A stretch of DNA of 64,000 nt from Psychroflexus lacisalsi (lineage in GTDB: Bacteria > Bacteroidota > Bacteroidia > Flavobacteriales > Flavobacteriaceae): positions 186,001-250,000 of the forward strand of contig NZ_JAIQYZ010000002.1 of the NCBI RefSeq assembly GCF_020164495.1, read 5' to 3'. The translations under genes were made by a program, and so were the position numbers. The notes under the pieces were generated by a model. It did not search any database and had not been told where the DNA came from. It saw only the letters and a program-made list of their open reading frames with translations. Below, piece by piece: positions 22,038 through 38,228 of the stretch; the stretch's first letter is position 1; each line of letters begins with the position of its first letter.

Positions 22038-22081
22038 TAAAAATAACTAATTAACCCAACTCAGAACGTGACAAAAGTTAC
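22038..22081 (-). promoter_or_regulatory. Palindromic operator plus -7 box upstream of sqr
   Basis: Plus-strand GTGACAAAAGTTAC at 22068-22081 is one base off a perfect GTAAC-N4-GTTAC palindrome. On the minus strand a -7-like box TATTTTTA occupies 22045-22038, its TA 29.5 bp from the palindrome centre. The same distance is found at three other promoters in the window. The predicted start would be near 22033, 11 bases before the ATG. Confidence 0.6.
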
Positions 22082-22111
22082 ACAGGTTTTGATGTATGCT
22101 TAAATCTATAA

Positions 22112-22789
22112 TTAATCAATTATAAAATCAACTGCCATTTGTATGTGTAAATCTGTGGTGGCTAGAAATGGTAATTTTGTTGTTTCATTTTTCAGCAAAA
22201 TTGGTAATTCTGTACAACCTAGTATCACCGCATCTACTTCGTTTTCAAATGTAATAATAAGCTCCTTATAGAAGGTTTTAGCCTCTTCAGTAAATTTCCC
22301 CTGAGTTAATTCTTTGGAAACAAAGTGATGAGATTTTTCAATATCAGTTTCATCGGGAATCACAATTTCGAGGCGATGTTTGCTGGTTAAATAATCCTTT
22401 AAAAAGCCCTTGGTCATCGTAGGTTTATTGCCGAGTAAAAGTAACTTTTTGAAGTTGTACTTCTTAGAATCTTTAGCCACAGCATTCCCTATATGTAGAA
22501 ACGGAATCCCTATTTTTGGCTGAACAAAATCCACAGCCATGTGCGGTGTGTTAGCACAAATCAAAAGAGCCTCAGCGCCTGACTGCTCCAAAGTCTTGGC
22601 GACTCTAAGGTAGGTTTGATTGATTTCATCTTCGTCCTGTCTTCTCATCACATCAATGTTGATGCTATAGAGCAGTAATTCTGGATTTTGCGAACCTCCC
22701 AGTTGGTCAGCCACCTTTGCGTTGATGTCCCGATAATATTCCAGTGTGGAGTGGTAGGATGTTCCTCCAATTAGACCAAGTAGTTTCAT
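22112..22789 (-). CDS. Aspartate/glutamate racemase-family protein
   Basis: 225 residues, PLP-independent amino-acid racemase fold with two cysteines as acid/base: 'LICANTPHMAVD' near residue 78 and 'VILGCTELPILL' near 190; the N-terminal 'GLIGGTSYHSTLEYY' is the substrate-phosphate-binding start typical of the YgeA-type aspartate racemases. Both catalytic Cys are present, so it is probably active, but the amino acid is not certain. It lies 25 bases after the YjdM gene and may be co-transcribed with it. Confidence 0.87.
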   Translation of the reverse strand: MKLLGLIGGTSYHSTLEYYRDINAKVADQLGGSQNPELLLYSINIDVMRRQDEDEINQTYLRVAKTLEQSGAEALLICANTPHMAVDFVQPKIGIPFLHIGNAVAKDSKKYNFKKLLLLGNKPTMTKGFLKDYLTSKHRLEIVIPDETDIEKSHHFVSKELTQGKFTEEAKTFYKELIITFENEVDAVILGCTELPILLKNETTKLPFLATTDLHIQMAVDFIID

Positions 22790-22814
22790 AAGAAATAGTT
22801 TGAATCTTTATTAG

Positions 22815-23177
22815 TTATGCTTTTTTGACAAATTCAGATTTTAAAGCCATGGCTCCAAAATCTTTAATTTTGCAATCGATATTGTGATCGCCATCTGTGA
22901 GACGAATATTTTTCACTTTTGTTCCTGCTTTCAATGGTTTTGAGAAGCCCTTCACTGGAAGGTCTTTTACAATAACTATGTTATCACCATCTTCAAGTAC
23001 GTTCCCATTGGCATCTTTTATAAGAAGTTCGTTATTTTCTGCCTCGTTTTCTTCTGGTTTATTTTCTTCGATATTCCACTCAAAACTACATTCCGGACAG
23101 TTGTATAAACCTTGCCCTACGGAGTAACCATAAGGTGATTTACAATTTGGGCATTCTTTCATTTCTTCTGACATCAT
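22815..23177 (-). CDS. yjdM: Zinc-ribbon protein YjdM (PhnA-like)
   Basis: 120 residues. The N-terminal zinc ribbon has [10 protein letters not shown] and CPEC knuckles (residues ~9-31), followed by an acidic Glu/Asn linker and the small C-terminal SH3-like '[34 protein letters not shown]' domain of the YjdM/PhnA family. The old name alkylphosphonate utilisation protein is not supported by function; the role is unknown. MM at the start allows either Met; the second gives the usual family length. Confidence 0.9.
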
Positions 23178-23255
23178 GATTTTGAAATATTATTTTAAGC
23201 TCAAAAATGCGATAAACCTTTTACTTCTTAGGCATTGATTAGTTTTTATTCTAGT

Positions 23256-24032
23256 CTAAAAAGAAGTCGAGTACACTGCTCTACCATGTTGAGGTTGCTC
23301 GTCCCTGTAATTGTTGATTGGCATCAGATATTTTAATAATTCTACTTGCTCAAGCGAAACTTCTATAGCTTGCTTGAACACAATCCAGGTCACTTTTTCA
23401 GAGCAAGGCGGCGTGGTGAGCGAACCCTGATACGAAAAATAGCCCCTGTTCTGTGGCAGATTTTGAGAAATATCAAAAGGGCGTTGTATCAATTTCATTT
23501 CTCCTTTTTGAATAGGAAGGTAACTTTCTAAAAGTTCAAAAGGTTTGCTGTTATTTCCTTCCTTAGCCATCACTGAAAGCACGACAAATTCTTTTGATTC
23601 ATTTTGGTGAACCAAATGAATTTCCAGAGGATAGCGAACACCTTCAATAAGATGTTCTGCTGGTTCGTGAAAATGAAATTGTTTGAGATGAAAAGTATCC
23701 TCTTTATGAATCAAAAAATCACCTCTTTCAAAGTCATACTGAATGGAATGCCCATTATTGGCAACATCATGGAGTATTGTTTTTTCTGAATAATGCAAAT
23801 CTATAGGCTCAAGGTCCTCTGCAACTTTATAATTTACAAGGTTAATTGGCGATTGGAAATTTCCATTACAATGGGTCTCACCTTCCAGCTCCGCCCAATG
23901 CTCCGGACCTGTTTCACCCTCATAACTCCAGTGATTTGATTTATCATTGGTTTCAACCTTTTCTTTTTTAGGTTGATCTTGACAACTTAAAACCAAAACA
24001 AGAACAGAAATAGATATAAGAAGTCTATTCAT
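23256..24032 (-). CDS. Alpha-class carbonic anhydrase, lipoprotein
   Basis: Interconverts CO2 and bicarbonate outside the cytoplasm. 258 residues with a lipoprotein signal ending LVLVLSC (Cys at ~17). Domain from ~34: 'HWAELEGETHCNGNFQSPINL', zinc ligands in 'FHFHEPAEH' (two His) and the third in 'EIHLVHQN', and 'GSLTTPPCSEKVTW', the conserved Thr region of the active site. The Cys in 'THCNGNFQSPI' and in 'PPCSE' would form the usual alpha-CA disulfide, consistent with export. Its start overlaps the stop of the upstream haem lipoprotein by 8 bases, so the two are co-translated. Confidence 0.93.
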   Translation of the reverse strand: MNRLLISISVLVLVLSCQDQPKKEKVETNDKSNHWSYEGETGPEHWAELEGETHCNGNFQSPINLVNYKVAEDLEPIDLHYSEKTILHDVANNGHSIQYDFERGDFLIHKEDTFHLKQFHFHEPAEHLIEGVRYPLEIHLVHQNESKEFVVLSVMAKEGNNSKPFELLESYLPIQKGEMKLIQRPFDISQNLPQNRGYFSYQGSLTTPPCSEKVTWIVFKQAIEVSLEQVELLKYLMPINNYRDEQPQHGRAVYSTSF

Positions 24033-25026
24033 TTTTAGAAAAATTGATGCTCCACATCCCTCTAACTTCGTTCACCCCGTACCCAATAGCCTTATCTTGT
24101 GGATACAGCTCTTTGATTTTATCGTAAGTTTCTCTTTCGATTTCCTGACCTGGCGTCCCGTGGCATTTTAAACACATATCATTGGTGACTATAGGATAAT
24201 AAAAATTTACATTTTCACCTTCTTCTACCACCATAGGTTCCGGTTCTTCCCCATTTTCTAATATCTGCTTGTAAAGCGAAATATATTCCAACTCTACCTC
24301 GTTGGCTTTATTTTTTGGATTTCTAAACTTATCGGAGACTCGCTTTATAATCGCGTTGTGTTTGGTTGCCATAGAATCGGTAAGTGGCATCGCCTGGACA
24401 TTACAAAATGATAAGGCATGCAGGACGCCTTCTTTTTGTATAGCTCCCATCAGGTTTTTACCCAAAGTTTGCTTAGTAGATTTGGCATAAGACATACCGA
24501 TTTCCGCATAGCTTTGCTCCGGTTCAGCCAAGCTCCCTACAGATTTCCCTTTTTGCTTGTATCCTTTACCATGATTCTTTTTCCAATGCTCTTGAAACCA
24601 TTCCGGCTTTTCAATTTCATAATCGTACATAAATGCGGCGATAGCTTCAATATCTTTTTGCTGGTAAGGCTGGTAAGGCATCAATCCGAAACGCTTGACC
24701 GCTCCTTTTAGTTTTGCTTTTTCATGGGTGGGTTTTTCAACAAAATTCCATAAATCAGCAATAAATTCTTCTTTGGAATCCGCATCGCGGGTATATCTCG
24801 CTTTCAAAGCAATCATTGGTGGAGCAATCATGGATTTTTCAGCGGCTTTGGGACTGTGGCAGAGGTAGCATTTGTTCTGCATCAGGGTTTTACCTCTTGC
24901 TGCTATTTCTTCTGAATTTAATTCCGTTGACTTTAGTTTGATGTAATTATCATCCTCTTTTTGAGTTGACTTTTTGCAGGATGTCAGGCTCACGGCTATA
25001 ACTAAAGCGATTAAGGTCCATTTCAT
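24025..25026 (-). CDS. Lipoprotein with N-terminal cytochrome c motif and C-terminal haem-binding Tll0287-like (DUF3365) domain
   Basis: I take ATG at 25026 (MKWTLIALVIAVSLTSC) because it gives a clean lipoprotein signal; a TTG three codons further up is less likely. 333 residues. The first haem site CYLCH (~52) lies in a mono-haem cytochrome c domain with a distal Met in 'FGLMPYQPY'; a second CLKCH site (~285) lies in the C-terminal domain, which resembles Tll0287-like/DUF3365 haem proteins that sense or carry electrons in the periplasm. Followed by alpha carbonic anhydrase with an 8-base overlap. A palindromic operator lies 50 bases upstream of the ATG. The role is probably extracytoplasmic redox or sensing; its link to CO2/bicarbonate is open. 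Confidence 0.8.
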   Translation of the reverse strand: MKWTLIALVIAVSLTSCKKSTQKEDDNYIKLKSTELNSEEIAARGKTLMQNKCYLCHSPKAAEKSMIAPPMIALKARYTRDADSKEEFIADLWNFVEKPTHEKAKLKGAVKRFGLMPYQPYQQKDIEAIAAFMYDYEIEKPEWFQEHWKKNHGKGYKQKGKSVGSLAEPEQSYAEIGMSYAKSTKQTLGKNLMGAIQKEGVLHALSFCNVQAMPLTDSMATKHNAIIKRVSDKFRNPKNKANEVELEYISLYKQILENGEEPEPMVVEEGENVNFYYPIVTNDMCLKCHGTPGQEIERETYDKIKELYPQDKAIGYGVNEVRGMWSINFSKNE

Positions 25027-25045
25027 GATATTCAAATTTAATAAA

Positions 25046-25089
25046 GCAATTTAGGCAGAGTCTATATATTGAATGGTAACTAAAGTTAC
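25046..25089 (-). promoter_or_regulatory. Palindromic operator plus weak -7 box upstream of the haem lipoprotein/carbonic anhydrase operon
   Basis: GTAACTAAAGTTAC at 25076-25089 is a perfect GTAAC-N4-GTTAC palindrome. A TAAATTGC box (two mismatches to TAnnTTTG) starts at 25053 on the minus strand, 29.5 bp from the palindrome centre, as in the other three sites. Confidence 0.55.
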
Positions 25090-25154
25090 AAGAAAGAATT
25101 TAGGTAATAGGCAACAGGCTTTTTAGAGAATTGAGAATTATGATTTTTTTATCC

Positions 25155-25197
25155 GTGAGTCGTGAGTCGTGAGTCGTGAGTCGTGAGTCGTGAGTCG
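25155..25197. repeat. 7-bp tandem repeat (GTGAGTC, ~6 copies)
   Basis: Six uninterrupted GTGAGTC units plus one base. It lies ~45 bases from a short family B remnant and is related in sequence and position to the GTCGGGA array at 20460-20482. Confidence 0.9.
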
Positions 25198-25240
25198 AAA
25201 ATTAAAAAAGGAATTTTGAAATTACAAGTTTGAAATACCC

Positions 25241-25276
25241 CAGATCCCGATAATATTGAAAAGCGGGAATAGCTCC
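25241..25276. repeat. Family B element remnant, 36 bases
   Basis: Only the outer ends remain: CAGATCCCGATAA at the left and AGCGGGAATAGCTCC at the right, joined by TATTGAAA. It looks like an internally deleted form of the ~143-base element and shows that the ends alone can persist next to a terminator. Confidence 0.6.
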
Positions 25277-25280
25277 AAAC

Positions 25281-25311
25281 AAAAAAAGCGAAGGCTTACA
25301 CCTTCGCTTTT
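25281..25311 (-). terminator. Rho-independent terminator after peroxiredoxin
   Basis: On the minus strand AAAAGCGAAGG and CCTTCGCTTTT form a perfect 11-bp stem with a 6-base loop and a T run (TTTTTTTGTTT). Confidence 0.9.
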
Positions 25312-25338
25312 AACAATCATTAAAACTTAAAACACTAA

Positions 25339-26010
25339 TTAAAATTGCTTTTTGGCCAGATACCAAGTTGTTTTTTCAATAGAGTCATCTGCTACTCTTT
25401 CTTCGTAAGCCTTTAATGTTTTTGGTGGTGGCACTATTGCTTTTTCACCTTTTTTCCAGTCTAGTGGGCAAGCTGCACCATGCTCATCTGAGAATTGAAG
25501 AGCTTCCAAACATCTTAAAATTTCGTCCATGTTTCTACCAACATTTAGCGGGTAATACATGATCAATCTTATTTTTTTACTTGGATCGATAAAGAATACA
25601 GCTCTTACGGCTGCAGTTTCACTTTCGTTAGGCTGCAACATTCCGTACAGCTTGGATACCTTCATATCGATATCTGCGATAATTGGAAAGTCCATATAGA
25701 CTCCCGTGTTTTGTTTTACACTGTCTACCCAACCAATGTGCGAGTGAATAGAGTCGATGCTCAATCCTAAAAGCTCAGTGTTAAGAGCTTCAAATTCTTT
25801 TTTCCTTACCGCAAAACCACTCATTTCAGTAGTACATACAGGCGTAAAATCTGCTGGGTGAGAAAACATTACCGTCCATTTGTCTGGAGCAAACTCAGAC
25901 ATTTTCATATTACCTGTAGTCGTTACCGCTTCAAAATCTGGAGCTTGATCTCCGATTCTTGGCATCTGAATTGGTTGTTCTGTTTTGTTTATTTCTTTTA
26001 AATCTTCCAT
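25339..26010 (-). CDS. Peroxiredoxin (Prx6-type)
   Basis: Reduces hydrogen peroxide, organic peroxides or peroxynitrite in the cytosol. 223 residues. Peroxidatic Cys in 'HPADFTPVCTTEM' (~59); conserved Arg in 'VRAVFFIDPSKKIR'; further Cys in 'RCLEALQ' and 'GAACPLDWKKGE' near 170-180, as in bacterial/archaeal Prx6 forms that can form a disulfide. The C-terminal extension with 'WYLAKKQF' is normal for the subfamily. Preceded by a good promoter with two palindromes (26037-26080) and followed by a strong terminator, so it is a single-gene unit. Confidence 0.93.
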   Translation of the reverse strand: MEDLKEINKTEQPIQMPRIGDQAPDFEAVTTTGNMKMSEFAPDKWTVMFSHPADFTPVCTTEMSGFAVRKKEFEALNTELLGLSIDSIHSHIGWVDSVKQNTGVYMDFPIIADIDMKVSKLYGMLQPNESETAAVRAVFFIDPSKKIRLIMYYPLNVGRNMDEILRCLEALQFSDEHGAACPLDWKKGEKAIVPPPKTLKAYEERVADDSIEKTTWYLAKKQF

Positions 26011-26036
26011 AGTTAATTTGTTTTTTTATGATGGCA

Positions 26037-26080
26037 CAAATATAAGTTTAAACTATAGTTTTTAAAGTAACGATAGTTAC
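26037..26080 (-). promoter_or_regulatory. Peroxiredoxin promoter: -7 box with two upstream palindromes
   Basis: On the minus strand TATATTTG (26044-26037) matches the Bacteroidota -7 consensus TAnnTTTG exactly. GTAACGATAGTTAC at 26067-26080 is a perfect palindrome whose centre is 29.5 bp from the box, which places it near -41.5. A second perfect 12-base palindrome, AAACTATAGTTT, sits between them at 26050-26061 and could hold a second regulator. Confidence 0.7.
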
Positions 26081-26410
26081 ACAGAATAGTATAATGTGGA
26101 AATAATTAAAAAAAACTGATTTTATTGAAGTAGAACCTGAAACATCCTGAGTGGTCTTCAAATCAAGAATAAGGCTTAGGGAATGTTTTAAAACTTACTA
26201 AAGTAGTTGTTTGCTGAAGGCAAATCAAGCGTCTTAAACACCTTGATTAGGTTGAATAAAGAAATATTGTATACCATTACTAAGTTTAAAATTTGCTTTT
26301 TATAAAATCTTTAATTTTTAAAAACAAATCATCTACACACAGTGAATAAACTTTTCAGTAACTCCCGCAGATTTGATTTTACTTTTTGAACAAAACAATT
26401 CAGCAACGAA
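26081..26410. other. Intergenic stretch with no recognised feature
   Basis: About 330 AT-rich bases between the peroxiredoxin promoter and the end of the beta-propeller gene. No open frame with coding character, repeat or clear terminator was found. Confidence 0.5.
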
Positions 26411-27280
26411 TTACTTTTCATAAGAAACAAAAGCAAAACGTTTACCATCTGGCGACCAGGAGGGTACGTTTAGGCTTCCTTGTCCGCCGGTAAATTCGCA
26501 TAAAGTAGTGATCGCTTGTGTTTTCAAATCGAAAAGTCTTAAGGCTACTCTTTTCAGTGGTGGGTGGGCATCGCCCTGATCTTTGAGATAAGATAAAAAC
26601 ACAAAACAAGAACCGTCTGGAGACGGGTGCGGAAACCAGTTAGAGTATGCATCTTGAGTAAGTTGTGTTTTTTCGCTACCGTCAACCTTCATCCTCCAGA
26701 TCTCCATACTCCCCGATTGTATGGAGTTGTAGTAAATATAATGGCCGTCGTGTGAATAATCTGGACCATCGTCAAGCCATTCTCCATCTGTAAGTCGGCT
26801 CTCTTCACAACCAGAAATATCAATGCTATAAATATCAAACCCCTCATCACGTTTGGCTGTATAGACCAGAGTTTTCCCGTCTGGGGACCAGCCGTGCCAA
26901 AAGGAAGACTCCTTGGGCGTGATCAATTCTGGAGTGCCACCAGAGGCTGGGAGTCTATAAATTTTGGAAGTGAGCCAGTGTTCTTTATCCTTTGGTGGGA
27001 CTGCATCAGCAGAGCTGATTACTATCTGTTTGCCGTCTGGTGAAATACCATGGTCATTATTCAGGTTTTTGACAAAACTTGTATCTAAATCTGTTTTTGC
27101 TTTAGTTTTCAAATTCAATTTAAAAAGTTTCCCATCACTATTCAGAAGAAGATACTCATCATCTCGACTCCAGTTGGGCGCCTCAAAATGACCGGTTTCA
27201 GTATAGATTACTTCCCTTTGGTGAGTGTCGAGATTATAAGTTTCTAATATGGATTTCATTTTAAAATAATTTAAAGGCAT
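26411..27280 (-). CDS. TolB-like WD40/PD40 beta-propeller protein
   Basis: 289 residues with repeated PD40 blades: 'APNWSRDDEYLLLNSDGKLFKLNL', 'HGISPDGKQIVISS', 'WHGWSPDGKTLVYTAKR', 'GPDYSHDGHYIYYNS', 'FPHPSPDGSCFVFLSY', 'VPSWSPDGKRFAFVSY'. This is about six blades of the TolB C-terminal type. There is no signal peptide and no TolB N-terminal domain, so it is not the Tol-Pal component; it is probably a cytosolic binding scaffold of unknown ligand. Met at residue 8 (27259) is an alternative start; neither has a convincing ribosome binding site. Confidence 0.8.
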   Translation of the reverse strand: MPLNYFKMKSILETYNLDTHQREVIYTETGHFEAPNWSRDDEYLLLNSDGKLFKLNLKTKAKTDLDTSFVKNLNNDHGISPDGKQIVISSADAVPPKDKEHWLTSKIYRLPASGGTPELITPKESSFWHGWSPDGKTLVYTAKRDEGFDIYSIDISGCEESRLTDGEWLDDGPDYSHDGHYIYYNSIQSGSMEIWRMKVDGSEKTQLTQDAYSNWFPHPSPDGSCFVFLSYLKDQGDAHPPLKRVALRLFDLKTQAITTLCEFTGGQGSLNVPSWSPDGKRFAFVSYEK

Positions 27281-27322
27281 GTCTATATGCGAAGACTTAG
27301 AATTAGAAAGCCTTACTTCATA

Positions 27323-27496
27323 TTAATCCTCATCTGACTTTTTCAATTGATTATACCCAGTGACTCCTGTAGCAATAGATAGAAATAACATAATGGGGAC
27401 GGCGACTTTCCAAAGGGGACAAGAAAAATAGGCGCCGACCATTAGACCTAAAAATAATCCGCTTGCCCAAAATAAAACCATATGTTGCTTGATCAT
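27323..27496 (-). CDS. Small membrane protein (57 residues)
   Basis: An intact frame from ATG to TAA. Two membrane segments: 'MVLFWASGLFLGLMVGAYF' (6-24) and 'VAVPIMLFLSIATGVTGY' (31-48), then a charged tail KKSDED. There is no named family. Gene-like features are the hydrophobic pair with a basic N-terminus and acidic tail. It lies between the beta-propeller gene and a divergent plus-strand gene. Confidence 0.6.
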   Translation of the reverse strand: MIKQHMVLFWASGLFLGLMVGAYFSCPLWKVAVPIMLFLSIATGVTGYNQLKKSDED

Positions 27497-27691
27497 AAGT
27501 TTTTTTTTAAAGATATAATTTTTAAAAATTTTAAAATGGTTTTTATAAAATTTGAAAGCTTTACAGGCTTTCCTTTAAGAAGGAATGCAGTCCATCAAAA
27601 CCTTAATTATAGGTATTCACTTAAGGAGTATTGATTTCTGCAAATGGTTTCTTTTGCTTAACTTTTACATCGAGTTCAAGTCCTCATTTAA

Positions 27692-29611
27692 ATGGAAAAT
27701 GTAATTGTAGAACGCGTTGCCGATTTTCTGAAGCTATATCCGCCCTTTCAGGATTTGAGTTCAGAAGATTTATACCTTTTGGCTACAAAAGTAAGAGTTC
27801 ATTACATACCTAAAAGGAATTACGTGTTTAAGCAAGGAGATCCTGCACACAAGGAATTTTATGTGGTGCAGCAAGGAGCAGTTGGATTACGGTCAAAAGA
27901 GATGAGCTCATCCAACTGGATAGATATATGTGACGAAGGTGATATCCTGGGCTTACGACCATTGTTTGCAGATCAGACCTACGCTATGGAGGCCATGGCA
28001 AAAGAGGAATGCGTGTTGTATGCCATTCCTTTTGAAGCTTTTAAAGAGTTATTACTGAATAACAAAATGGTGATGGATTTTCTTCTGGAAAGCTTTGCTT
28101 CCAATACCAGGAACCCAAAAGCTTCAGAATCTAAAGGCAAACTACTCTCCAGCAATTACAATTCAAGCGAAGAGGCAAATTCAGAATTGGATTTTTTTCA
28201 ACAGGCATTTTACACCAAAAATCCTATATGCCTCACTCCTACTAAAACCGTCCAGGAAGCCGCTTATATCATGAATAAGCACAAAATTAGCTCGCTCATT
28301 ATTGAAGAGAATAAGCTCCCGATTGGTATCGTGACCGATAAGGATATTCGTCGTTGGGTCGCCAATGGTAGCATGAATAGTGAAGACAAATTAAGTACGA
28401 TCATGTCCTCTCCTGTAAAATGCGTTCCTCCGCATGTCCATTTAGCCGATGTGCAGGGCTTGCTCTTACAGCATAAAATCGGCCATTTGTGTGTCACCAA
28501 AGACGGGTCTCAAGACTCTGAAATTGTGGGAATTTTATCTGAACATGACATTGTTACGGCGCAAGCCAATAATCCTATTGCACTTCTGAAGCAAATTGAA
28601 CGGGTGAATCAAAAAGAGGATTTGACCAGAATTCGTAAATCTCTGAGTAGTCTTTTAAAGGCCTACCTCAACACGGGCTTACCGATGCCTTACGTTATGA
28701 AAGTAAGCCGATTGATCACGCAAGCTTTGATGCATCGGGTTATTGAATTAAGCCTAGAAAAAATAGGTGTTTCTCCAGTCAAATTTTCCTGGCTGGGAAT
28801 TGGGAGCCAAGGCCGCGGCGAACAATTATTACTGACAGATCAGGATCATGCGCTGGTTTTTGAAGACGTTCCCGATGAAAAATTTGAAAGTACCCAGGCT
28901 TACTTTTTGAAATTGGCTGAAGAAATTAGCCGTATTTTCAATGAACTAGGCTATGAGTTTTGCCCGGCAGACATGATGGCCAGCAATCCAGAATATTGTT
29001 TGAGTCTGAGTCAATGGAAACAAAAGTTTTCAAATTGGATAGAAGAACCTTCATCTGAAAGCATCATGATGTGTAATATCTTTTTTGATTACGCCAAAGT
29101 GTATGGTGAAGATGAACTTTCGAAACAACTGAGTGAACATATTTTCAGAAAATTGAAGGGCAATCAACGTTTTTTCGCTTATTTAGGTGAAGATGCGGTG
29201 AAAAATCCACCGCCTCTAGGGTTCTTCAGACAATTTATAATTGAAGACGATGGCAGGCATAAAGATGAATTTGATGTCAAAGCCAGAGCCATACAGCCCT
29301 TGGTGGAGGCAGCAAGGGTTTTAATTTTATCTGAAGGTATAGAAGGTAAAAACAATACGATTGAACGTTTTGAAAAATTGATAGAGCTCGAACCTCAAAA
29401 TGAAGACATCTACGCAGGATGTATCAAAAGCTTTCATGTCTTATCCAGGTTTAGAGCTGTCGAAGGCTTTAAACAAAATTCCTCAGGCAGGTATTTGGAA
29501 CTGTCCACATTGAGCAAGAGTGACAAAATGAAGCTGAAGCGTTCTTTTAAACCCATAAAAGACATTCAACGCTTATTAAAAAACCGATTTCAACTCACTT
29601 ATTTTCTCTAA
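27692..29611 (+). CDS. CNMP-binding/CBS/DUF294 nucleotidyltransferase-like signalling protein
   Basis: 639 residues with four parts in order: a cyclic-nucleotide-binding-like domain (~15-135, 'FKQGDPAHKEFYVVQQGAVGL'), two CBS domains (~175-300, 'ISSLIIEENKLPIGIVTDKDIRRW' and 'IGHLCVTKDG'), a DUF294 nucleotidyltransferase-like domain (~320-460, 'GIGSQGRGEQLLLTDQDHALV', with the Gly-Ser and Asp-x-Asp metal motif) and a helical substrate-binding domain to the end. The resemblance to GlnD-type enzymes suggests nucleotidyl transfer or sensing of adenine nucleotides; the target is unknown. Its stop overlaps the next start (TAATG), so it is co-translated with the exonuclease. This pair often accompanies acetate metabolism genes in other bacteria. 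Confidence 0.88.
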   Translation: MENVIVERVADFLKLYPPFQDLSSEDLYLLATKVRVHYIPKRNYVFKQGDPAHKEFYVVQQGAVGLRSKEMSSSNWIDICDEGDILGLRPLFADQTYAMEAMAKEECVLYAIPFEAFKELLLNNKMVMDFLLESFASNTRNPKASESKGKLLSSNYNSSEEANSELDFFQQAFYTKNPICLTPTKTVQEAAYIMNKHKISSLIIEENKLPIGIVTDKDIRRWVANGSMNSEDKLSTIMSSPVKCVPPHVHLADVQGLLLQHKIGHLCVTKDGSQDSEIVGILSEHDIVTAQANNPIALLKQIERVNQKEDLTRIRKSLSSLLKAYLNTGLPMPYVMKVSRLITQALMHRVIELSLEKIGVSPVKFSWLGIGSQGRGEQLLLTDQDHALVFEDVPDEKFESTQAYFLKLAEEISRIFNELGYEFCPADMMASNPEYCLSLSQWKQKFSNWIEEPSSESIMMCNIFFDYAKVYGEDELSKQLSEHIFRKLKGNQRFFAYLGEDAVKNPPPLGFFRQFIIEDDGRHKDEFDVKARAIQPLVEAARVLILSEGIEGKNNTIERFEKLIELEPQNEDIYAGCIKSFHVLSRFRAVEGFKQNSSGRYLELSTLSKSDKMKLKRSFKPIKDIQRLLKNRFQLTYFL

Positions 29612-30210: not shown

Positions 30211-30260
30211 CTTTCAAATTTAGTCTCACTTTGTAATAAAGGATTAAAATTCAAAAAAGA

Positions 30261-30810
30261 TCATTTCTTATTACTAAGTGCCTTAAGATCGGATAGGATG
30301 TCCTGATGAATTTTTAAATCCTTGTCATCAAAAAGCACAAATCGTATGGTCTTGACCGCATTCAATTCGGGAATCACATCCGAAATCGTTTCAGAGGTAA
30401 TTTTGGTGGCCTCTTTTGTAGGAAACCCAAAAGCAGCAGTCGATATCGCTGGAAAGGCGACGTAATTAATTTTTTTATCCTCTGCAATTTGCAAAGCCTT
30501 ACGATAACAATTTGCTAAAAGCTGGTCTTCAGGTTGGTCTCTGCCGTAAACCAGGCCTAAACAATGAATGTCACAGTCGTTCGGCAATTGATGTCCTCCT
30601 GTAATTACTGCCTCACCGGGTTGTATTGGGACCAATGGTCTACATTCCTTCTCGAGACATGGACCCACCAGCTTTATATAGAGCACCTGCCACTCCACTG
30701 CTAATTATCAATTCTGCATTTGCTGCTTTAACAATAGCGAACACATCAGCTTGGGAGGCAACGTCTCCTTTTACACACTCTATTGTCATTCTTAAAATTG
30801 CTTTTTCCAT
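30261..30810 (-). pseudogene. Macro-domain (ADP-ribose/O-acetyl-ADP-ribose hydrolase-type) gene with a frameshift
   Basis: Reading from ATG at 30810 gives 'IECVKGDVASQADVFAIVKA', 'ANAELIISSGVAGALYKAGG' and then runs into TAG. The continuation 'PCLEKECRPLVPIQPGEAVI' is in the next frame and runs to the stop at 30261. Removing one C from the CCC at 30664-30666 restores a continuous 182-residue macro domain of normal length (ADP-ribose loops NAANAEL-like and 'PAISTAAFGFP'). An AGGTGAG sits before the ATG. It is either a real recent inactivation or a base-call error; the protein is otherwise undamaged. If expressed in two pieces, neither contains the full binding site. Confidence 0.85.
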
Positions 30811-30842
30811 ACTCACCTATTCTATTTTGAAGTTTTCTTCAA

Positions 30843-31910: not shown

Positions 31911-32010
31911 TATCCAATTTTTGAATACATAAAACTAAAAAATGGCAGGCAACCCATGTTTTTAATCACATTATGACTACCTGTCATTTAAAATTTGATT
32001 TTAAAATGAA

Positions 32011-33174
32011 TTAGTATCTATACACCGCATTTACAGTTTTATGATGCTCATCTGGCATATCCTCTTTTTCCATAATAAAAATGGTGCCTCCTTTTTCAAA
32101 AACTTTTATCGCGATAAGGTTAAGCAATGAGATGTTATTGTCTGTCAGGTCTTCTTGAATACTTGCTTCTTGGCTAGTATTGTCATAATGACCAAAGATT
32201 TCAGCTCCATTTTGCACAAATAAACTGTCAATTCTTCCTTCTATAGCAGACCTTATAATTGCATTTGTATCTGCGGAAGCCTTGCCAGTTCCAATATATT
32301 CTGAATATAGATTCAATTTATCCTCACGAGCTTTTTCAAAATGAGGCTGAAGTAGACTCCAGGCTTCTTCATGAAGTTGATCGATGTCTTTGTCCTCTGG
32401 ATTTCCTGACACATGCTCATCGTGAAGGTTTTGGTATGTATTTACATCCTTGTAGATAGGAAATTGGAAATCCTGACAAGCCATTACAAATGGCGGCTTT
32501 TGGTCGTCATGAAGCATGGTCATAATACCGTCGTTCACCGCTCTAAAGTAACGTTTCATTTCATTTAATTCCTCAGCTTTTCCCTCTCCGGCTCCATGGT
32601 ACATTCCAGATTTGCTGTCACCTTGTTGCCCAGACCGAAACTGAAGATTTTTCTGTTCAAAATCATACCCAACAACATCTTCTAATCTTGATGGGACATC
32701 TTCGGGAGTAATGACTTCTGTCATGGAGTAACGAGTTCCTTCATAGAATTTTACCATGTCATTTTTAAGCGATAAAAGGTAAAACAGGCCATCACCATTA
32801 AAAAGTGGCATCAGTGATTTGAGGTAAAACTCATCGGATACATAATTAAACTCTTTGAAATAAACAGGAACCGTGTAGGTTTTGAAGGTGTTTTCTGAAA
32901 GAAAAATAGCCAGTCCATCTGACTGATGTCTCCAAAATTCACTATCATTTACAAGGTCATATACAGGCTTAACTAATCCTTCAATTTCTTTATCACTTAA
33001 ACCTCGCTTTTCTAACTTTGCTTTTGCATTTTTAAGCTGAGTTTTGAGTCTGATTTTATCTTGTCCATCCAAAGTTTCTGCACCAGCGCGATGAGTTGGT
33101 ATATAAATAGAAACATAATTTGGACTTTGTTCGTTTGCTAATTTTAGAACTTCTTGTTTTGTTATCATTGCCAT
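32011..33174 (-). CDS. baeRF-like protein (bacterial archaeo-eukaryotic release-factor family)
   Basis: 387 residues, soluble. 'SPNYVSIYIPTHRAGAETLDGQDKIRLKTQLKNA' at ~17-50 and the C-terminal 'GGTIFIMEKEDMPDEHHKTVNAVYRY' match the shape of bacterial eRF1/pelota-like (baeRF) proteins, as does the middle domain (~125-240) with 'FYLLSLKNDMVKFYEG'. There is no GGQ motif. The family is thought to act on ribosomes, possibly in dormancy or rescue. The assignment rests on motif memory, not alignment, so moderate confidence. Confidence 0.65.
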   Translation of the reverse strand: MAMITKQEVLKLANEQSPNYVSIYIPTHRAGAETLDGQDKIRLKTQLKNAKAKLEKRGLSDKEIEGLVKPVYDLVNDSEFWRHQSDGLAIFLSENTFKTYTVPVYFKEFNYVSDEFYLKSLMPLFNGDGLFYLLSLKNDMVKFYEGTRYSMTEVITPEDVPSRLEDVVGYDFEQKNLQFRSGQQGDSKSGMYHGAGEGKAEELNEMKRYFRAVNDGIMTMLHDDQKPPFVMACQDFQFPIYKDVNTYQNLHDEHVSGNPEDKDIDQLHEEAWSLLQPHFEKAREDKLNLYSEYIGTGKASADTNAIIRSAIEGRIDSLFVQNGAEIFGHYDNTSQEASIQEDLTDNNISLLNLIAIKVFEKGGTIFIMEKEDMPDEHHKTVNAVYRY

Positions 33175-33531
33175 ATTAGTAGGTTTTATAGTAATTAATA
33201 AAAATTGATCTTGTGATTATCGACAATTTCAAACTATGAAATACATAGTCCTTCCAATTATATTTAAGAATAATTTAAAGATAATTGAATGAATTAAGAT
33301 TCTAAAATTTATGCTTATTAAATTTTTAGAGAATTCAACACAAAGTTTTACAAGTTTTTTTTGGTTTTGATTGGGGATGGGTTTGGATAGATCACTCGGA
33401 GCTAGTCTTTTGGTAATCTGATTGGGAACATGAAGGATTCTAAATAAGGGAAGCTTAGGATTATGTAAACTTCTTCAAAAATCAAAGTGTTTAAGGAAAT
33501 AATTATTTTAACTAAAACACTACAATACAAA
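33175..33531. other. Intergenic stretch, promoter region of the baeRF-like gene
   Basis: About 360 AT-rich bases. No open frame with coding character or repeat was found. It must contain the promoter of the minus-strand baeRF-like gene, but no box matching TAnnTTTG with good spacing stands out. Confidence 0.4.
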
Positions 33532-33584
33532 AAAAACTACATTCATGATGTAAAGGTTGATTTTACATCATCAATGTAGTTTTT
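33532..33584 (-). terminator. Long terminator hairpin after beta carbonic anhydrase
   Basis: Arms at 33532-33554 and 33562-33584 pair over 23 bases with one mismatch, with a 7-base loop and A/T tracts at both ends, so it could stop transcription from either side. It lies just after the stop of the minus-strand gene at 33608. Confidence 0.85.
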
Positions 33585-33607
33585 GTAATAATTTCAATTA
33601 TATCTTA

Positions 33608-34204
33608 CTAGCTTGGTCTTCCTACTTCAGTAGCCTGAGAAATCTCATTTAGCTTTCCTGTGTGACAGTCATAAATATAACCATAAATAGCAATATCATT
33701 GGGAACCATTGAATTTTCCCTTATACGTTTGACGTCCTCAATAACACTTTTTTCGTTGTCGCTTATGGTTAACCAATTTATAAATCGTCCTTCATTGGTT
33801 CCGTCTTCAGCACCCGTATCATGCCAGCCGTTCTCATCAACTGTTGCTGGTTTTAGACTTTGAGAGAGTAAATCACCCATAATCTCGTTCGTAAACGTTA
33901 ACATACCACAATCCGTGTGATGAATAACAAACCACTCACGAGTCCCCAGTAACTTATAGGATATAACCAATGAGCGAATTGCATCATCTGTTGCTCTTCC
34001 TCCTGCATTGCGAATTACGTGTGCATCACCTTCAGCGAGTCCAGCATATTTTGCAGGATCAAGACGTGCATCCATACATGTAAGAATAGAAAACTTTCTT
34101 CCTGGAGGCATAGGAATATTTGCTTTATCTCCAAAATTATTTGCATATTCCATATTAGCCTTGACGACTTCATTCACTACTTTACTCTTTGTTTCATTAC
34201 TCAT
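33608..34204 (-). CDS. Beta-class carbonic anhydrase
   Basis: 198 residues, cytosolic. Zinc ligands and catalytic pair are visible: '[11 protein letters not shown]' (Cys ~43, Asp-Arg dyad) and '[11 protein letters not shown]' (His, Cys ~100). The shortened sequence between these motifs and '[21 protein letters not shown]' fit the type seen in small Rv1284-like enzymes. It converts CO2 to bicarbonate in the cytoplasm, complementing the exported alpha-class enzyme at 23256. Single gene with a long terminator. Confidence 0.92.
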
Positions 34205-34353
34205 ATCTAATATTTTTTATTTGGGGTCTAATTTATGGAACAAATCATTTCATCGACTTTAGAGCGTTAAGAAATAAGTTATTGTTCCCATTTGTTTATC
34301 TGAAAACTCTCAAGGTGATTTTAAAGTTTCAGTTGTCTATTTCAAGCTTTAGT

Positions 34354-34677
34354 TCAGTTGATTTTTTTGTAGCGTGCAAGTACTCGATAAATTCCATTTT
34401 TATATTGTGCCAGACACACTTCCTCATTATCAATAACTTCCTTATCGGTCACACAGTGTATTCTGCCATTTTTTCTGGTAAAGTTCCAATGGTCTGATAC
34501 TCTATAACTCCCCTCGGGTTTAAAACTCCAATCGATTTGATCACTGGAATAAAACGATTCGCTGTAGGGTGATTTGGTAATCACATACCAACTTTTCATC
34601 CTTTTCTTAATTTCTTCTGGAATGTTATAGTTGTCTAAATCAATAATATTTAGATAAATTTCTCTTTTAAAAGGCAT
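34354..34677 (-). CDS. Hypothetical protein, 107 residues
   Basis: Not recognised. Soluble, no signal peptide, rich in aromatic residues (SWYVITKSPYSESFYSS, 'WSFKPEGSYRVSDHWNFTRK') in beta-strand-like pattern, with two Cys far apart. It lies in a group of three small unknown minus-strand genes (34354-35640) separated by 40-320 bases, of lower GC than the neighbouring housekeeping genes. Confidence 0.6.
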   Translation of the reverse strand: MPFKREIYLNIIDLDNYNIPEEIKKRMKSWYVITKSPYSESFYSSDQIDWSFKPEGSYRVSDHWNFTRKNGRIHCVTDKEVIDNEEVCLAQYKNGIYRVLARYKKIN

Positions 34678-34720
34678 TAAGATTCAATGAATAATGAAAT
34701 CGAATTATTGAAATTATTGG

Positions 34721-35044
34721 TTATATGTTCTTTACTGATTTTTCTGCATGCTCCTTTGATAAGAAGCTTTTTATGTAGAGGTTATAAAAATTATCTTTTG
34801 AAAACGTTGCTGGTATTTTCTTTTCATCTACGTGACCAATGATTTCGTTAAAGTCATTTGTGAGTAGTAGCAATTGATTTCCAGTTCTTAGATGATCGGC
34901 TTCATATTCAAAAGTCCACCACAGCCCCTTATCCTTATTTAAAGATTCTTTGTACGTGATTAGGTAATTTAGTAAATCATCATGGCTATAATGAAAATCA
35001 TTAAAAGATCGATTTTCATCTTGAATCTTTAGTTTTACCAGCAT
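34721..35044 (-). CDS. Hypothetical protein, 107 residues
   Basis: Not recognised. Soluble, no signal. An N-terminal beta/alpha region 'MLVKLKIQDENRSFNDFHYSH', then 'GLWWTFEYEADHLRTGNQLLLLTNDFNEIIGHVDEKKIP' suggests a small alpha/beta fold. It ends 43 bases before the 34354-34677 gene, so the two could share a transcript. No functional inference. Confidence 0.6.
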   Translation of the reverse strand: MLVKLKIQDENRSFNDFHYSHDDLLNYLITYKESLNKDKGLWWTFEYEADHLRTGNQLLLLTNDFNEIIGHVDEKKIPATFSKDNFYNLYIKSFLSKEHAEKSVKNI

Positions 35045-35364
35045 AGTTTGAAAATTTATTTTCTGTTACAGTATAATATTGAAAATAATTGCGGTAAAGA
35101 CTTATTAGGGTTTAAAAATTAAAGTACTTTTTTATAAGTTTCAACGGATAACCGATTTAGTAGCTGATATTGAATTTTTTAAAATTAATATCCGTTTGGG
35201 TTTAGAAAATCACATTTTAGTTAATAGTCAATTCGCTCTGATACTTTTAATTGTTTTTAGCTTTATTTTTGATCACAACTATGCCTATAAATTGGACTAA
35301 ACGCATTAAGCCTATTTGTTTTATTTAAAAACGAAATTGATTACAATTCCGTAAATTTTAAAAG
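35045..35364. other. Intergenic stretch with no recognised feature
   Basis: About 320 AT-rich bases between two small unknown genes. No frame with coding character, repeat or hairpin of note was seen. Confidence 0.4.
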
Positions 35365-35640
35365 TTATTTCTTACCTCTGTAGGCTAAAGAAATCCTATT
35401 GTGCTCTATAAGCAACTGTTCGTCTCCCTTATAGCTTTTTAATAAATGAATGACGTGGTCGAATTGTTCTTCACTTATGTTTTTATAGGCTGGGGCCGGT
35501 ACGACATCTTTCCATTTAGCTTGCATAGTGTTGTCCAAAGCAATACGCCAATAACAATGATTATCAAAATTCAAATGTCTGTGAATTTTTGGTAACTCAT
35601 TTCCTAGACTAAAATATAATTTTCTCTTTCCTGTATCCAT
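35365..35640 (-). CDS. Hypothetical protein, 91 residues
   Basis: Not recognised. Basic, soluble; 'LPKIHRHLNFDNHCYWRIALDNTMQAKWKDVVPAPAY' followed by a helix 'ISEEQFDHVIHLLKSY' and a basic end. The balanced composition and His/Trp/Cys-containing central block look like real protein. Stand-alone, between two long non-coding stretches. Confidence 0.6.
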   Translation of the reverse strand: MDTGKRKLYFSLGNELPKIHRHLNFDNHCYWRIALDNTMQAKWKDVVPAPAYKNISEEQFDHVIHLLKSYKGDEQLLIEHNRISLAYRGKK

Positions 35641-35750
35641 AGCTAATTCTTATTCTAAAAGAAGCAAAATAATTTAATGCACGGATTTAGATCATTAAAC
35701 AATTGAAATTAATTTCCTCAATTTTTGATAAGACATAGACTTTCGAAAAT

Positions 35751-35776
35751 TTCGTTTTCGTTTTCGTTTTCGTTTC
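35751..35776. repeat. 6-bp tandem repeat (TTCGTT, ~4.3 copies)
   Basis: Four TTCGTT units plus two bases within a 325-base AT-rich spacer (35641-35965) that otherwise shows no feature apart from the presumed promoter of the following plus-strand gene. Confidence 0.8.
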
Positions 35777-35965
35777 AGTGAACGTTGTACATTTATCTTA
35801 AATAAAATACTTAATCGTGTAGTGTCTAAATTATTTTTAGTTTGATTCACAACTTAGTCTGTATTATTTTAAGTAATTAATCAAAAAAAAATCCAAACTC
35901 AATATTTTATTAACGTTTATTTTATATTGCTCAACTAAAAAATATTAATTAAGTTAATCTATAAA

Positions 35966-37201
35966 ATGACTTATAAAATTTCAATCCTCCTTTTATTTTC
36001 TTTCTTTTTCACTAGTGCACAAAAAGATTTTAAATCAGGCTATTTCATTGCTGATGGAATAAAAACAGATTGTTTAATTGAAAATAAATTTTGGAATTCT
36101 AGTCCCGATGAGTTTGTTTACAAACTCGATAAAGATAGTCCTACCAAAACACGAAATAAATTCAACACCAGTGAATTTGGCTTAAATGGTTATTTTAAAT
36201 TTATAAGTGCTGATTTAGATATTGATGAAAGTAAATGGGAAACTGATAATTTAGACTACAATAGAGAACCTGAGTTTGAAAAGAAAAGGGTCTTCTTAAG
36301 ATTAATTATTGATAGTGAAGTCAAATTTTATAATTACACAAGAGGCAAAAATATAAAACGCTATTTCTATCAAATTGGAAATTCTGATATTGAGCAATTA
36401 GTTTACAAGAAATATTTAATAAGAGATAAAAACAAACAAATAGGAGAAAATGATGCCTATAAACAATGGTTGTTTAATAATTTAAAGTGTGAAGATCAGT
36501 CTCTAAATGATGTCGAGAAATTGAAATATAATGAAACTAGTCTTAAAAAATATTTTATAGAATATAATGAGTGTATAGGAGCAGAAATTAAGTTCATTGA
36601 TAAAAAACAAAAAGTAGATTTTTTAAAATATCTTGATTTTAGTTTTTCTCTAAAAGGAGGAGTTGAATTTGGCTCAACCAAGGTTGTAAATGCGTTGAGA
36701 GAAAACCTAAACACTGATTTAGGCAGCAGTGAAGCTTTTCGTTATGGGGTGGAAGCAGAATTCTATTTGCCATTTTTGAAAAAGCAATTTTCTTTTTACT
36801 CTGATCCGAGTTATCGCTCAATTTCTATCTCACTATCTATTCCTGATGAAAGATTGACTGGAAATCTTAAGAATGTCAACTATAATTACAGCTCATTTGA
36901 AATACCACTTGGCATTAGATATTATTATTACTTCAATGAGGCTACACAACTATTTCTAAATTATGCATACGTATTTGATAATGTGGGTGATGATTCTTCT
37001 GTAGAATTCAGTAGAGCTGATGGAACAAGCCTGGGAGGTTTTAGTAATTTGAAAACAAATGAAAGTCAATATTTCGGTGTAGGTTTAAGAGCTTTCGATC
37101 GCTTTAGTGGTGAATTGAGATTCTATACCAACAAGGACATAGGACCAAATATTGAGTATTCAAATTCAATTACCCTAGTGGTTGGATATAAAGTTTTTTA
37201 G
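35966..37201 (+). CDS. Outer-membrane beta-barrel protein with a novel N-terminal domain
   Basis: 411 residues. Signal peptide 1-18 (LLLFSFFFTSAQ). N-terminal domain (~20-200) starts 'KSGYFIADGIKTDCLIEN', a layout seen in many flavobacterial proteins of unknown role; the C-terminal half (~220-411) is an 8-strand-type barrel ('FSLKGGVEFGSTK', 'LGIRYYYYFNEATQLFLNYAYVF', 'YFGVGLRAFDR', ending LVVGYKVF with terminal Phe). It is probably a surface-exposed or periplasm-facing outer-membrane protein. The function is unknown. Confidence 0.75.
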   Translation: MTYKISILLLFSFFFTSAQKDFKSGYFIADGIKTDCLIENKFWNSSPDEFVYKLDKDSPTKTRNKFNTSEFGLNGYFKFISADLDIDESKWETDNLDYNREPEFEKKRVFLRLIIDSEVKFYNYTRGKNIKRYFYQIGNSDIEQLVYKKYLIRDKNKQIGENDAYKQWLFNNLKCEDQSLNDVEKLKYNETSLKKYFIEYNECIGAEIKFIDKKQKVDFLKYLDFSFSLKGGVEFGSTKVVNALRENLNTDLGSSEAFRYGVEAEFYLPFLKKQFSFYSDPSYRSISISLSIPDERLTGNLKNVNYNYSSFEIPLGIRYYYYFNEATQLFLNYAYVFDNVGDDSSVEFSRADGTSLGGFSNLKTNESQYFGVGLRAFDRFSGELRFYTNKDIGPNIEYSNSITLVVGYKVF

Positions 37202-37315
37202 GTAGTGAATCCAGTTGCATTACACGATACAAATACAACTGAAGATTTTAAAAAGTCATGGTATCTAGAACATAAAAACACTCAAGCAAGCAACTTTTTT
37301 CTTTAAAAAAGAACC

Positions 37316-37384
37316 CACTTCGTGCATCCCAAAGCGTTCTGCTTTGAAAATCAAAACACCCCATTTAAAACTTCAAGCAAGCTT
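37316..37384. repeat. 69-bp direct repeat, copy 1 (second copy 37439-37507)
   Basis: CACTTCGTGCATCCCAAAGC to TTCAAGCAAGCTT; 65 of 69 bases match the copy at 37439-37507, 54 bases apart. Each contains a small AAAGC-GTTCYG-CTTT hairpin. The second copy forms part of the tRNA-Arg terminator, so this one looks like a duplicated and decayed terminator block. Confidence 0.85.
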
Positions 37385-37438
37385 GGTCTTAAATTAAGAA
37401 CAGACACGGTTCTCAATTAATAGTAATACGTAAGGATT

Positions 37439-37507
37439 CACTTCGTGCATCCCAAAGCGTTCCGCTTTGAAAATCAAAACACCTTATTTAAAATTTCAAG
37501 CAAGCTT
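37439..37507. repeat. 69-bp direct repeat, copy 2
   Basis: Matches 37316-37384 at 65 of 69 positions. Its right part supplies one arm of the terminator hairpin at 37477-37526. Confidence 0.85.
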
Positions 37508-37526
37508 GATTTTAAATAAGGTGTTT
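37477..37526 (-). terminator. Terminator of tRNA-Arg
   Basis: AAACACCTTATTTAAAAT (37477-37494) and its exact complement (37509-37526) form an 18-bp perfect stem with a 14-base loop, 12 bases after the tRNA 3' end. Confidence 0.8.
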
Positions 37527-37538
37527 CTATTTATTCGT

Positions 37539-37611
37539 GACCGCGGAGGGATTCAAACCCCCAACCCTCAGAGCCGAAATCTGATGCGCTATTCAGTTGC
37601 GCCACGCGGCC
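37539..37611 (-). tRNA. tRNA-Arg (anticodon UCG)
   Basis: 73 bases fold as a full cloverleaf on the minus strand: acceptor GGCCGCG/CGCGGTC (one G-U pair), D arm GCGC/GCGC, anticodon stem TCAGA/TCTGA with loop TTTCGGC giving anticodon TCG, 5-base variable loop, T arm GGGGG/CCCTC with loop TTTGAAT. CCA is not encoded. It reads CGN arginine codons. Confidence 0.95.
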
Positions 37612-37670
37612 TCAAATTCCCGCGAAAGCGGAAATATATTTACATTGCAAAATTACAATACTAATCTATC

Positions 37671-38120
37671 TTAAGACAAGTTCTCTTTTACAATTTTAGA
37701 AATAGTTTTGCCATCAGCTCTACCGGCAAGCTTTTGCGTAGCCAAGCCCATCACTTTTCCCATGTCTTTCATCGAGTCGGCGCCGGTTTCAGCAATAATA
37801 GCTTTTACCTCCTTCCCCACTTCCTCTTCACTCAATTGTGCTGGTAGAAATTGTTCGATGATTTTAGCCTCTTCCAATTCTGCATCAGCCAGATCTTTAC
37901 GGTCCTGCTCCAGATACAAGTCAGCACTATCTTTTCTTTGTTTTACCAGTTTTTGAACCAACTTCAACTCATCCGCTTCACTCATGTCTTCCTTATTGGA
38001 TGAGGCGGTTTTAGCCTTCAAAATTTCACTTTTTATAGATCTTAAAGAAGCTAAAGCAACAGAATCTTTTGCTTTCATCGCTTCTTTCATTTTAGTCATT
38101 ACTTCTTGTTCCAGTGCCAT
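37671..38120 (-). CDS. GatB/YqeY domain protein
   Basis: 149 residues, helical, cytosolic. 'MTKMKEAMKAKDSVALASLRSIKSEIL' at the start, 'RKDSADLYLEQDRKDLADAELEE' and 'MKDMGKVMGLATQKLAGRADGKTISKIVKE' at the end are the YqeY family. The domain is shared with the C-terminal tRNA-binding part of the GatB amidotransferase subunit, but YqeY alone has no proven role. In many flavobacteria this gene follows ftsZ; here it is next to tRNA-Arg instead. Divergent from the TauE/SafE gene. Confidence 0.93.
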   Translation of the reverse strand: MALEQEVMTKMKEAMKAKDSVALASLRSIKSEILKAKTASSNKEDMSEADELKLVQKLVKQRKDSADLYLEQDRKDLADAELEEAKIIEQFLPAQLSEEEVGKEVKAIIAETGADSMKDMGKVMGLATQKLAGRADGKTISKIVKENLS

Positions 38121-38184
38121 TATCTATTTTTTGGCTAAGATAATTAATAATCTTTCAAAATCAATTGAAAGCCCTACTTTCAAT

Positions 38185-38228
38185 GTAACCAAAGTTACTG
38201 CCTCAGCTTTAGTTGCGTTCTACATTTG
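38185..38228 (+). promoter_or_regulatory. Palindromic operator plus -7 box upstream of the TauE/SafE gene
   Basis: GTAACCAAAGTTAC at 38185-38198 is a perfect GTAAC-N4-GTTAC palindrome and TACATTTG at 38221-38228 is a perfect TAnnTTTG -7 box, 29.5 bp from the palindrome centre, exactly as at the peroxiredoxin promoter. Confidence 0.7.

Follow-up and report, generated by a model that had tools for sequence, protein, structure and literature searches.

CstR, SqrR, PigS/PigP, and FisR are named as sulfide-defense regulators in the available text of a review that lists BigR among its references (PMC9774590). In Acinetobacter, according to the accessible part of PMC7315123, FisR controls sulfide:quinone reductase (SQR), persulfide dioxygenase (PDO), and TauE, and BigR controls yeeE/yedE/pdo2. 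Members of the Crp/Fnr superfamily are not commonly associated with the sensing of sulfide. Literature searches, weak on the term "Crp/Fnr" and on subscription papers, found no Crp/Fnr sulfide regulator for Bacteroidota, nor did a search find literature joining Crp, persulfide, sulfide regulation, and flavobacteria. Here we describe a candidate of this kind that spans flavobacteria and relatives. It is traced from a 64,000-nucleotide stretch of the Psychroflexus lacisalsi genome (assembly GCF_020164495.1, contig NZ_JAIQYZ010000002.1, positions 186,001 to 250,000; hereafter the window), in which four promoters carry the palindrome GTAAC-N4-GTTAC. The original prediction, made from the letters of this DNA, had taken them for a candidate Crp/Fnr-type regulon, a reading now supported by pairing with a regulator, by conservation of the motif, and by its fixed spacing. 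Judged from sequence, the four palindromes are probably operators of one activator, the Crp/Fnr protein P0001, which would drive a sulfide/persulfide-defense regulon by class II activation.

The four sites lie exactly where they had been reported. Three are perfect palindromes, and one carries a single change (GTGAC-AAAA-GTTAC, 22068-22081). At one mismatch or fewer the window holds just these four matches; the mean in 100 shuffles of the window was 0.79, and four were reached in none of them. The features concerned are the following.

20766-22022, minus strand: sqr-like sulfide:quinone reductase, 418 residues (Pfam Pyr_redox_2; NCBIfam type III SQR under cut-off)
22038-22045, minus strand: -7 box TATTTTTA of sqr, 29.5 bp from the operator center, 5/6 consensus letters
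22068-22081, minus strand: operator of sqr, GTAAC-TTTT-GTCAC on the gene strand, one change (motif scan; conserved in sqr relatives)
23256-24032, minus strand: alpha carbonic anhydrase (PF00194), overlapping the cytochrome c/Tll0287 gene
24025-25026, minus strand: cytochrome c plus Tll0287-like protein (Pfam; ATG at 25026, mechanical open reading frame from TTG at 25035)
25046-25053, minus strand: weak -7 box TAAATTGC of the cytochrome promoter, 29.5 bp from the center, 4/6 letters (TAAATTTG at 42.5 bp)
25076-25089, minus strand: perfect operator of the cytochrome c/Tll0287 lipoprotein (motif scan; in 8/28 relatives)
25339-26010, minus strand: AhpC/TSA-1-cysPrx_C peroxiredoxin (Pfam and NCBIfam profiles)
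26037-26044, minus strand: -7 box TATATTTG of peroxiredoxin, 29.5 bp from the operator center, 6/6 letters
26067-26080, minus strand: perfect operator of peroxiredoxin (motif scan; in 12/17 close orthologues at one change or fewer)
38185-38198, plus strand: perfect operator of TauE/SafE (motif scan)
38221-38228, plus strand: -7 box TACATTTG of TauE/SafE, 29.5 bp from the operator center, 6/6 letters
38254-39057, plus strand: TauE/SafE sulfite exporter family protein, 267 residues, ATG at 38254 (PF01925)

A box 29.5 bp from the center had been claimed for every site. This held for sqr, peroxiredoxin, and TauE, but the box of the cytochrome promoter is weak. Pfam likewise upheld most of the proposed gene identities, namely alpha carbonic anhydrase, cytochrome c plus Tll0287-like protein, AhpC/TSA 1-Cys peroxiredoxin, and TauE. 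The sqr call is softer: only Pyr_redox_2 was matched in Pfam, and the NCBIfam type III SQR profile, a selenoprotein subtype, scored 211 bits where 525 are required. The lipoprotein character of the cytochrome c/Tll0287 protein was judged by eye; its gene and the overlapping carbonic anhydrase gene likely belong to the same operon. The DNA that separates the cytochrome operator from the peroxiredoxin gene also contains a perfect tandem repeat of the 7-base unit CGTGAGT (6.3 copies, 25154-25197).

As the original prediction had noted, the window itself contains no Crp/Fnr gene, and the genome's four HTH_Crp_2 matches are all elsewhere. The search for a Crp/Fnr gene co-occurring with the motif led to a strong candidate, P0001, on another contig (G000:C1:1493362-1493994), and the composite promoter described below tracks its orthologues. 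P0001 is a 211-residue Crp/Fnr protein that matches PF00027 (33.7 bits) and PF13545 (35.1 bits), both above cut-off, and has the recognition helix T-S-R-V-V-I-S-R. Its structure model, used for fold only (mean predicted local distance difference test score 80.9, predicted template modeling score 0.59), has a Crp/Fnr-type fold, and the top 50 fold matches are of this type (CRP, FNR, NtcA, DNR, HcpR). A perfect palindrome begins 9 bases past its last codon, just behind the stop, and precedes genes for a heavy-metal-associated (HMA) protein and a metallo-beta-lactamase (MBL)-rhodanese protein that is persulfide-dioxygenase-like. Among the four Crp-type loci of the genome, a site with at most one change is found only at P0001 (3.2 kb inspected around each of the other three).

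The pairing of promoter and regulator was followed in 199 genomes of 185 genera, taken by inference as Flavobacteriaceae. Bare palindrome counts in 149 whole genomes of the class gave no useful separation (by eye, without a statistic); because the few true sites are lost in the background, a composite promoter was used instead (palindrome, 22 bases, TAnnTTTG; at most one mismatch). Genomes with a strong P0001 orthologue (n = 178) held 4.33 copies on average, those with a weak one (n = 8) 0.88, and those with none (n = 13) 0.23; at least one copy was present in 173/178, 5/8, and 3/13, respectively. The weak class, with best E-values of about 1e-33 to 1e-42, was defined after the list had been viewed. 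The difference between strong and remaining genomes has p = 1e-11 when the weak class is pooled into the 13 without an orthologue and p = 1e-8 when it is omitted. Over all 199 genomes the reversed composite pattern gave 71 matches versus 781 (hand tally).

Motif and spacing are conserved around the regulator itself. Relatives of the regulator numbered 227 in a scan of named genomes, and the loci of the 80 best were kept (1.53 Mb); the nearest relative, from Psychroflexus, is 92% identical to P0001, and the rest are mostly from flavobacteria. The palindrome occurs 150 times in this DNA, where half-site counts predict 0.99, and each of the other spacers from 0 to 12 occurs 0 to 2 times. Only nine of the 150 perfect sites fall inside open reading frames of at least 100 residues, though such frames make up 86% of the DNA, so that the motif is not equally frequent in coding DNA. 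A site with at most one change is located within 300 bp behind the regulator gene in 54/80 loci, in 52 of them with a box of at least 5/6 letters, and within 700 bp before it in 14/80. With the seven sites of the own genome added (157 sites, 314 orientations), TAnnTTTG stands exactly 29.5 bp from the center 91 times and at the next distances 4 times; the fixed spacing thus holds in other genomes. The available text of PMC9723704 places the box at -12 to -5 in Flavobacterium psychrophilum. From this position and the 29.5-bp spacing, the palindrome center is predicted near -41.5, as the original prediction had proposed for a class II activator. In the consensus of 135 boxed promoters the palindrome is not flanked by a strong -33 box, as would be expected if an activator takes over its role.

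Genes behind the sites were surveyed with a box defined as TA plus three letters of TTTG at 29.5 bp, and the gene was taken as the longest ATG open reading frame of at least 50 residues starting within 500 bp, not necessarily the first. By this rule 116/157 sites are boxed, one on both sides, giving 117 oriented sites; 12 of these lack such a frame, including the TauE site of the window, whose frame runs on upstream. The 105 remaining frames encode MBL-rhodanese or rhodanese proteins (33), TauE-like proteins (26, the second largest group), fatty-acid-hydroxylase-like proteins (10), the regulator (9), YeeE-type proteins (7), SulP (5), SQR (3), YgaP-like transmembrane proteins (3), peroxiredoxin (2), DoxX (2), and five singletons, among them cytochrome bd subunit I (CydA). 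The groups were named from Pfam scans of representative members; 25 downstream frames of the MBL-rhodanese/rhodanese group carry the MBL signature by simple text match. Members of a persulfide-type regulon, i.e. sqr, PDO, rhodanese, and sulfur transporters, are found as predicted targets.

Orthologues of three window genes differ in how often the site (at most one change) precedes them. The expectation of conserved upstream sites held for sqr (19/22) and close peroxiredoxins (12/17) but much less so for the cytochrome (8/28, 7 with a box); distant peroxiredoxins have it in 3/9. These counts leave out the own loci (L094, L118, L145), two partial matches (L117, L174), and five cytochrome matches without a locus; L132, with 22 bases of upstream DNA only, was kept as a miss. 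In the sqr relatives the site is at -61 to -73 relative to the start codon, each box has at least 4/6 letters, and TAnnTTTA-type boxes recur. The sqr gene was present in 24/119 genomes sampled. On this sequence comparison sqr appears to be a core target where present, peroxiredoxin a frequent one, and the cytochrome only an occasional one.

The own genome (3.04 Mb, 53 contigs) contains nine perfect palindromes, three of them in the window. The intergenic ones outside it lie after the Crp/Fnr gene and before YeeE/YedE-type sulfur transporters, a YceI protein, and a 453-residue protein without a Pfam match; two of the nine are inside coding genes (topoisomerase IV subunit A and electron-transfer-flavoprotein alpha). 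A composite search at one mismatch or fewer added sites before a fatty-acid-hydroxylase-family gene and a DUF983 gene. The former (L236:2108-2977, minus strand) stands behind a one-change site and a perfect box, and its homologues recur as targets in related loci.

The motif, its spacing, the pairing with the regulator, the target set, and the conserved cysteines are read directly in the genomes; from these we infer binding, activation, the enzyme roles, and the signal. A P0001 dimer would bind GTAAC-N4-GTTAC centered at about -41.5 and aid the sigma-A polymerase, in the class II manner, at promoters that keep the TAnnTTTG box and lack a strong -33 element. By family knowledge, SQR would convert sulfide to sulfane sulfur, the MBL-rhodanese protein would turn persulfide into sulfite, and TauE and YeeE/YedE would transport sulfite or thiosulfate-like sulfur. 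Peroxiredoxin, the cytochrome, and, in a relative, the bd oxidase may guard redox balance and respiration. The signal would be sulfane sulfur or persulfide, sensed by Cys77 with Cys83 where CRP has its cAMP-binding cassette. By analogy sulfane sulfur seems the likeliest signal, perhaps with an even chance, because the cysteines occupy the place of the cassette and the target list resembles what FisR and BigR control in Acinetobacter.

The three cysteines Cys77, Cys83, and Cys84 are invariant in 81/81 proteins (P0001 and its 80 relatives). In an alignment with CRP, Gly-Glu-Leu faces Ala-Met-Thr within C-A-M-T-L-S-C-C, and the cAMP cassette is absent; in CRP the cassette residues are Glu72, Arg82, and Ser83. 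Inspection of the P0001 sequence found no cysteine before residue 77, i.e. no FNR-type N-terminal cysteine cluster. Sixty distant regulators were taken from other families of the class, one per genome, chosen non-randomly from 95 genomes with a match so as to span the E-values. Cys77 is kept in 60/60 of them, Cys83 in 45/60, and Cys84 in 35/60. At their loci the dyad-plus-box pair again peaks at 29.5 bp (26/60), followed by 30.5 bp (6), with at most 3 at any other distance from 20.5 to 44.5 bp.

Several observations weigh against the proposed regulon or its signal. The reversed control pattern occurs six times in the own genome versus nine palindromes, so that the bare count is near background and by itself says little; the bare counts in the 149 genomes are no more telling. 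The cytochrome promoter, whose 29.5-bp box is the weakest of the four, has a perfect TAAATTTG at 42.5 bp, 13 bp beyond its 29.5-bp box. The yceI palindrome (L001:1501-1514) has no box at 29.5 bp (2/6 letters); perhaps it is used at another distance. The site is missing in 5/17 close and 6/9 distant peroxiredoxins, in 20/28 cytochrome relatives, and in 3/22 sqr relatives. In the structure model confidence is lowest over residues 61-90 (block means 56-65), the region of the cysteines, and in 11/60 distant regulators the columns of the three cysteines read C-G-G. Several of these C-G-G regulators (L211, L212, L215-L217, L219-L221, L226, L228, L231) still stand beside GTAAC-type sites; they may respond to a different signal.

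Crp/Fnr proteins respond to many signals. The same regulator and regulon could thus answer to thiol-redox state, peroxide, nitric oxide (NO), or metal acting on the cysteines, or to a small ligand in the cyclic nucleotide-binding domain, and we regard this as possible, though less likely than not. Peroxiredoxin, cytochromes, and the HMA protein among the targets would fit it, as would the retention of Cys77 alone of the three cysteines in the 11 distant relatives, whereas the core of the target set consists of MBL-rhodanese, rhodanese, and sulfur-anion transport.

That P0001 is instead an HcpR2-type nitrosative-stress factor, and its motif the HcpR2 motif, is very unlikely. The idea comes from the operator: the exact motif string was met in the searched literature for HcpR2, whose consensus in Bacteroides, clostridia, Thermotogales, and Treponema is the identical GTAACnnnnGTTAC (available text of PMC1274295). 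There, however, the sites are upstream of hcp, and the Prismane/hcp profile (PF03063) had no match in the own genome, with the control positive in 5/14 genomes. Most HcpR2 proteins have Pro at the position of CRP residue 181, according to the same source, versus Val in 81/81 here. The Porphyromonas gingivalis HcpR structure is 16% identical to P0001 in the fold search and missing among the 40 PDB sequences matched by sequence. HcpR2 membership was set aside on the lack of hcp and of Pro at 181, despite the operator match and a helix whose chemistry fits it.

Still less probable, by a little, is that another Crp/Fnr protein reads the sites. The genome has four HTH_Crp_2 genes, and one of them (C12:183724) is found some 2 kb to the left of the window. 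This protein has the FNR-like helix V-E-T-V-I-R, for which we presume a TTGAT-type site, and its gene is near a hemerythrin-domain gene; apart from P0001, no Crp locus of the genome has a site within one change. It was rejected as the reader of the palindromes on its helix type and the missing site at its own locus. The locus (L011, C12:183724-183909) also encodes a 132-residue protein that is globin-like by eye and has no Pfam match; the FNR-type Crp there is perhaps an oxygen/NO regulator. Finally, a four-fold recurrence by chance or through a mobile repeat is scarcely credible, for the low, near-background palindrome counts in whole genomes are set against conservation at a fixed distance, with diverged spacers, before orthologues across genera.

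With P0001 as the probable reader, its helix can be compared with the operators. Arg180 and position 181 of CRP are tied to operator bases (available text of PMC1274295). By alignment CRP Arg180 and Arg185 correspond to Arg182 and Arg187 of P0001, which are kept in 81/81 proteins and in 60/60 distant regulators, and CRP Glu181 is replaced by Val183, again in 81/81. Among the distant regulators position 183 is Val in 30 and Glu in 30. GTAAC-type and GTGAC-type composites stand at 78:28 in Val genomes versus 26:55 in Glu genomes (Mann-Whitney p = 1e-4), and counted per genome at 20 to 6 versus 7 to 17 (Fisher p = 0.0015); the test counts some one-change sites under both patterns and leaves base composition and phylogeny uncontrolled. 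Val-to-Glu variation goes with a shift toward GTGAC-N4-GTCAC. For operators beside the regulator alone, the contrast is not significant (per locus p = 0.087): G is the middle base in none of the Val-type operators, and 6/11 Glu-type loci have A only. Regulators with the helices Q-R-E-[SA]-A-T-R or H-R-E-A-I-S-R (L213, L214, L222, L229) are followed by GTAAC/GGAAC-N4-GTTCC sites, again spaced at 29.5 bp, which may represent a third operator code.

More broadly, and somewhat short of an even chance in our estimate, Bacteroidia Crp/Fnr proteins may form a further structural class of persulfide sensor. In these proteins cysteines (Cys77, usually with Cys83) would replace the cAMP cassette, and persulfidation or a polysulfide bridge would take the role of cAMP; the system would be old within Bacteroidia, drive the sulfide-defense regulon from -41.5, and read two or more operator codes, including GTAAC and GTGAC, with a single helix residue as the toggle. 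As 178/199 family genomes have a strong orthologue, the regulator, operator, geometry, and targets can be tested in flavobacteria that grow in culture. The constant spacing of 29.5 bp offers a well-replicated view of how an activator would be placed at the unusual -7 promoters of Bacteroidota, and the Val/Glu variation amounts to a natural specificity experiment within the Crp/Fnr family.

Among described proteins, HcpR2 shares with P0001 the Crp/Fnr superfamily, the operator consensus, and the correspondence between residue 181 in CRP numbering and an operator base (available text of PMC1274295); P0001 differs in its Val at that position, the lack of an hcp gene, its sulfide-gene targets, and the conserved Cys77, Cys83, and Cys84. 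In a few species, according to the same text, HcpR2 has Ser or Gln at 181, together with other motifs. The best PDB sequence match (E-value 8e-15), the Crp/Fnr protein 3dv8 of Eubacterium rectale, has cysteines aligned with Cys77 and Cys83; it is uncharacterized, with an entry title that names no function, and its helix has R-E in place of R-V. The Crp of Acinetobacter is also a Crp-type protein and is persulfidated in sulfide-treated cells, but it is 50% identical to Escherichia coli CRP, and the effect of the modification is left open in the available text of PMC7315123. FisR, BigR/SqrR, and CstR sense persulfide through cysteines (accessible parts of PMC7315123 and PMC9774590), as P0001 may do. 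They are, respectively, sigma-54 activator, ArsR, and CsoR types, whereas P0001 is a Crp/Fnr protein with a predicted sigma-A-type class II promoter.

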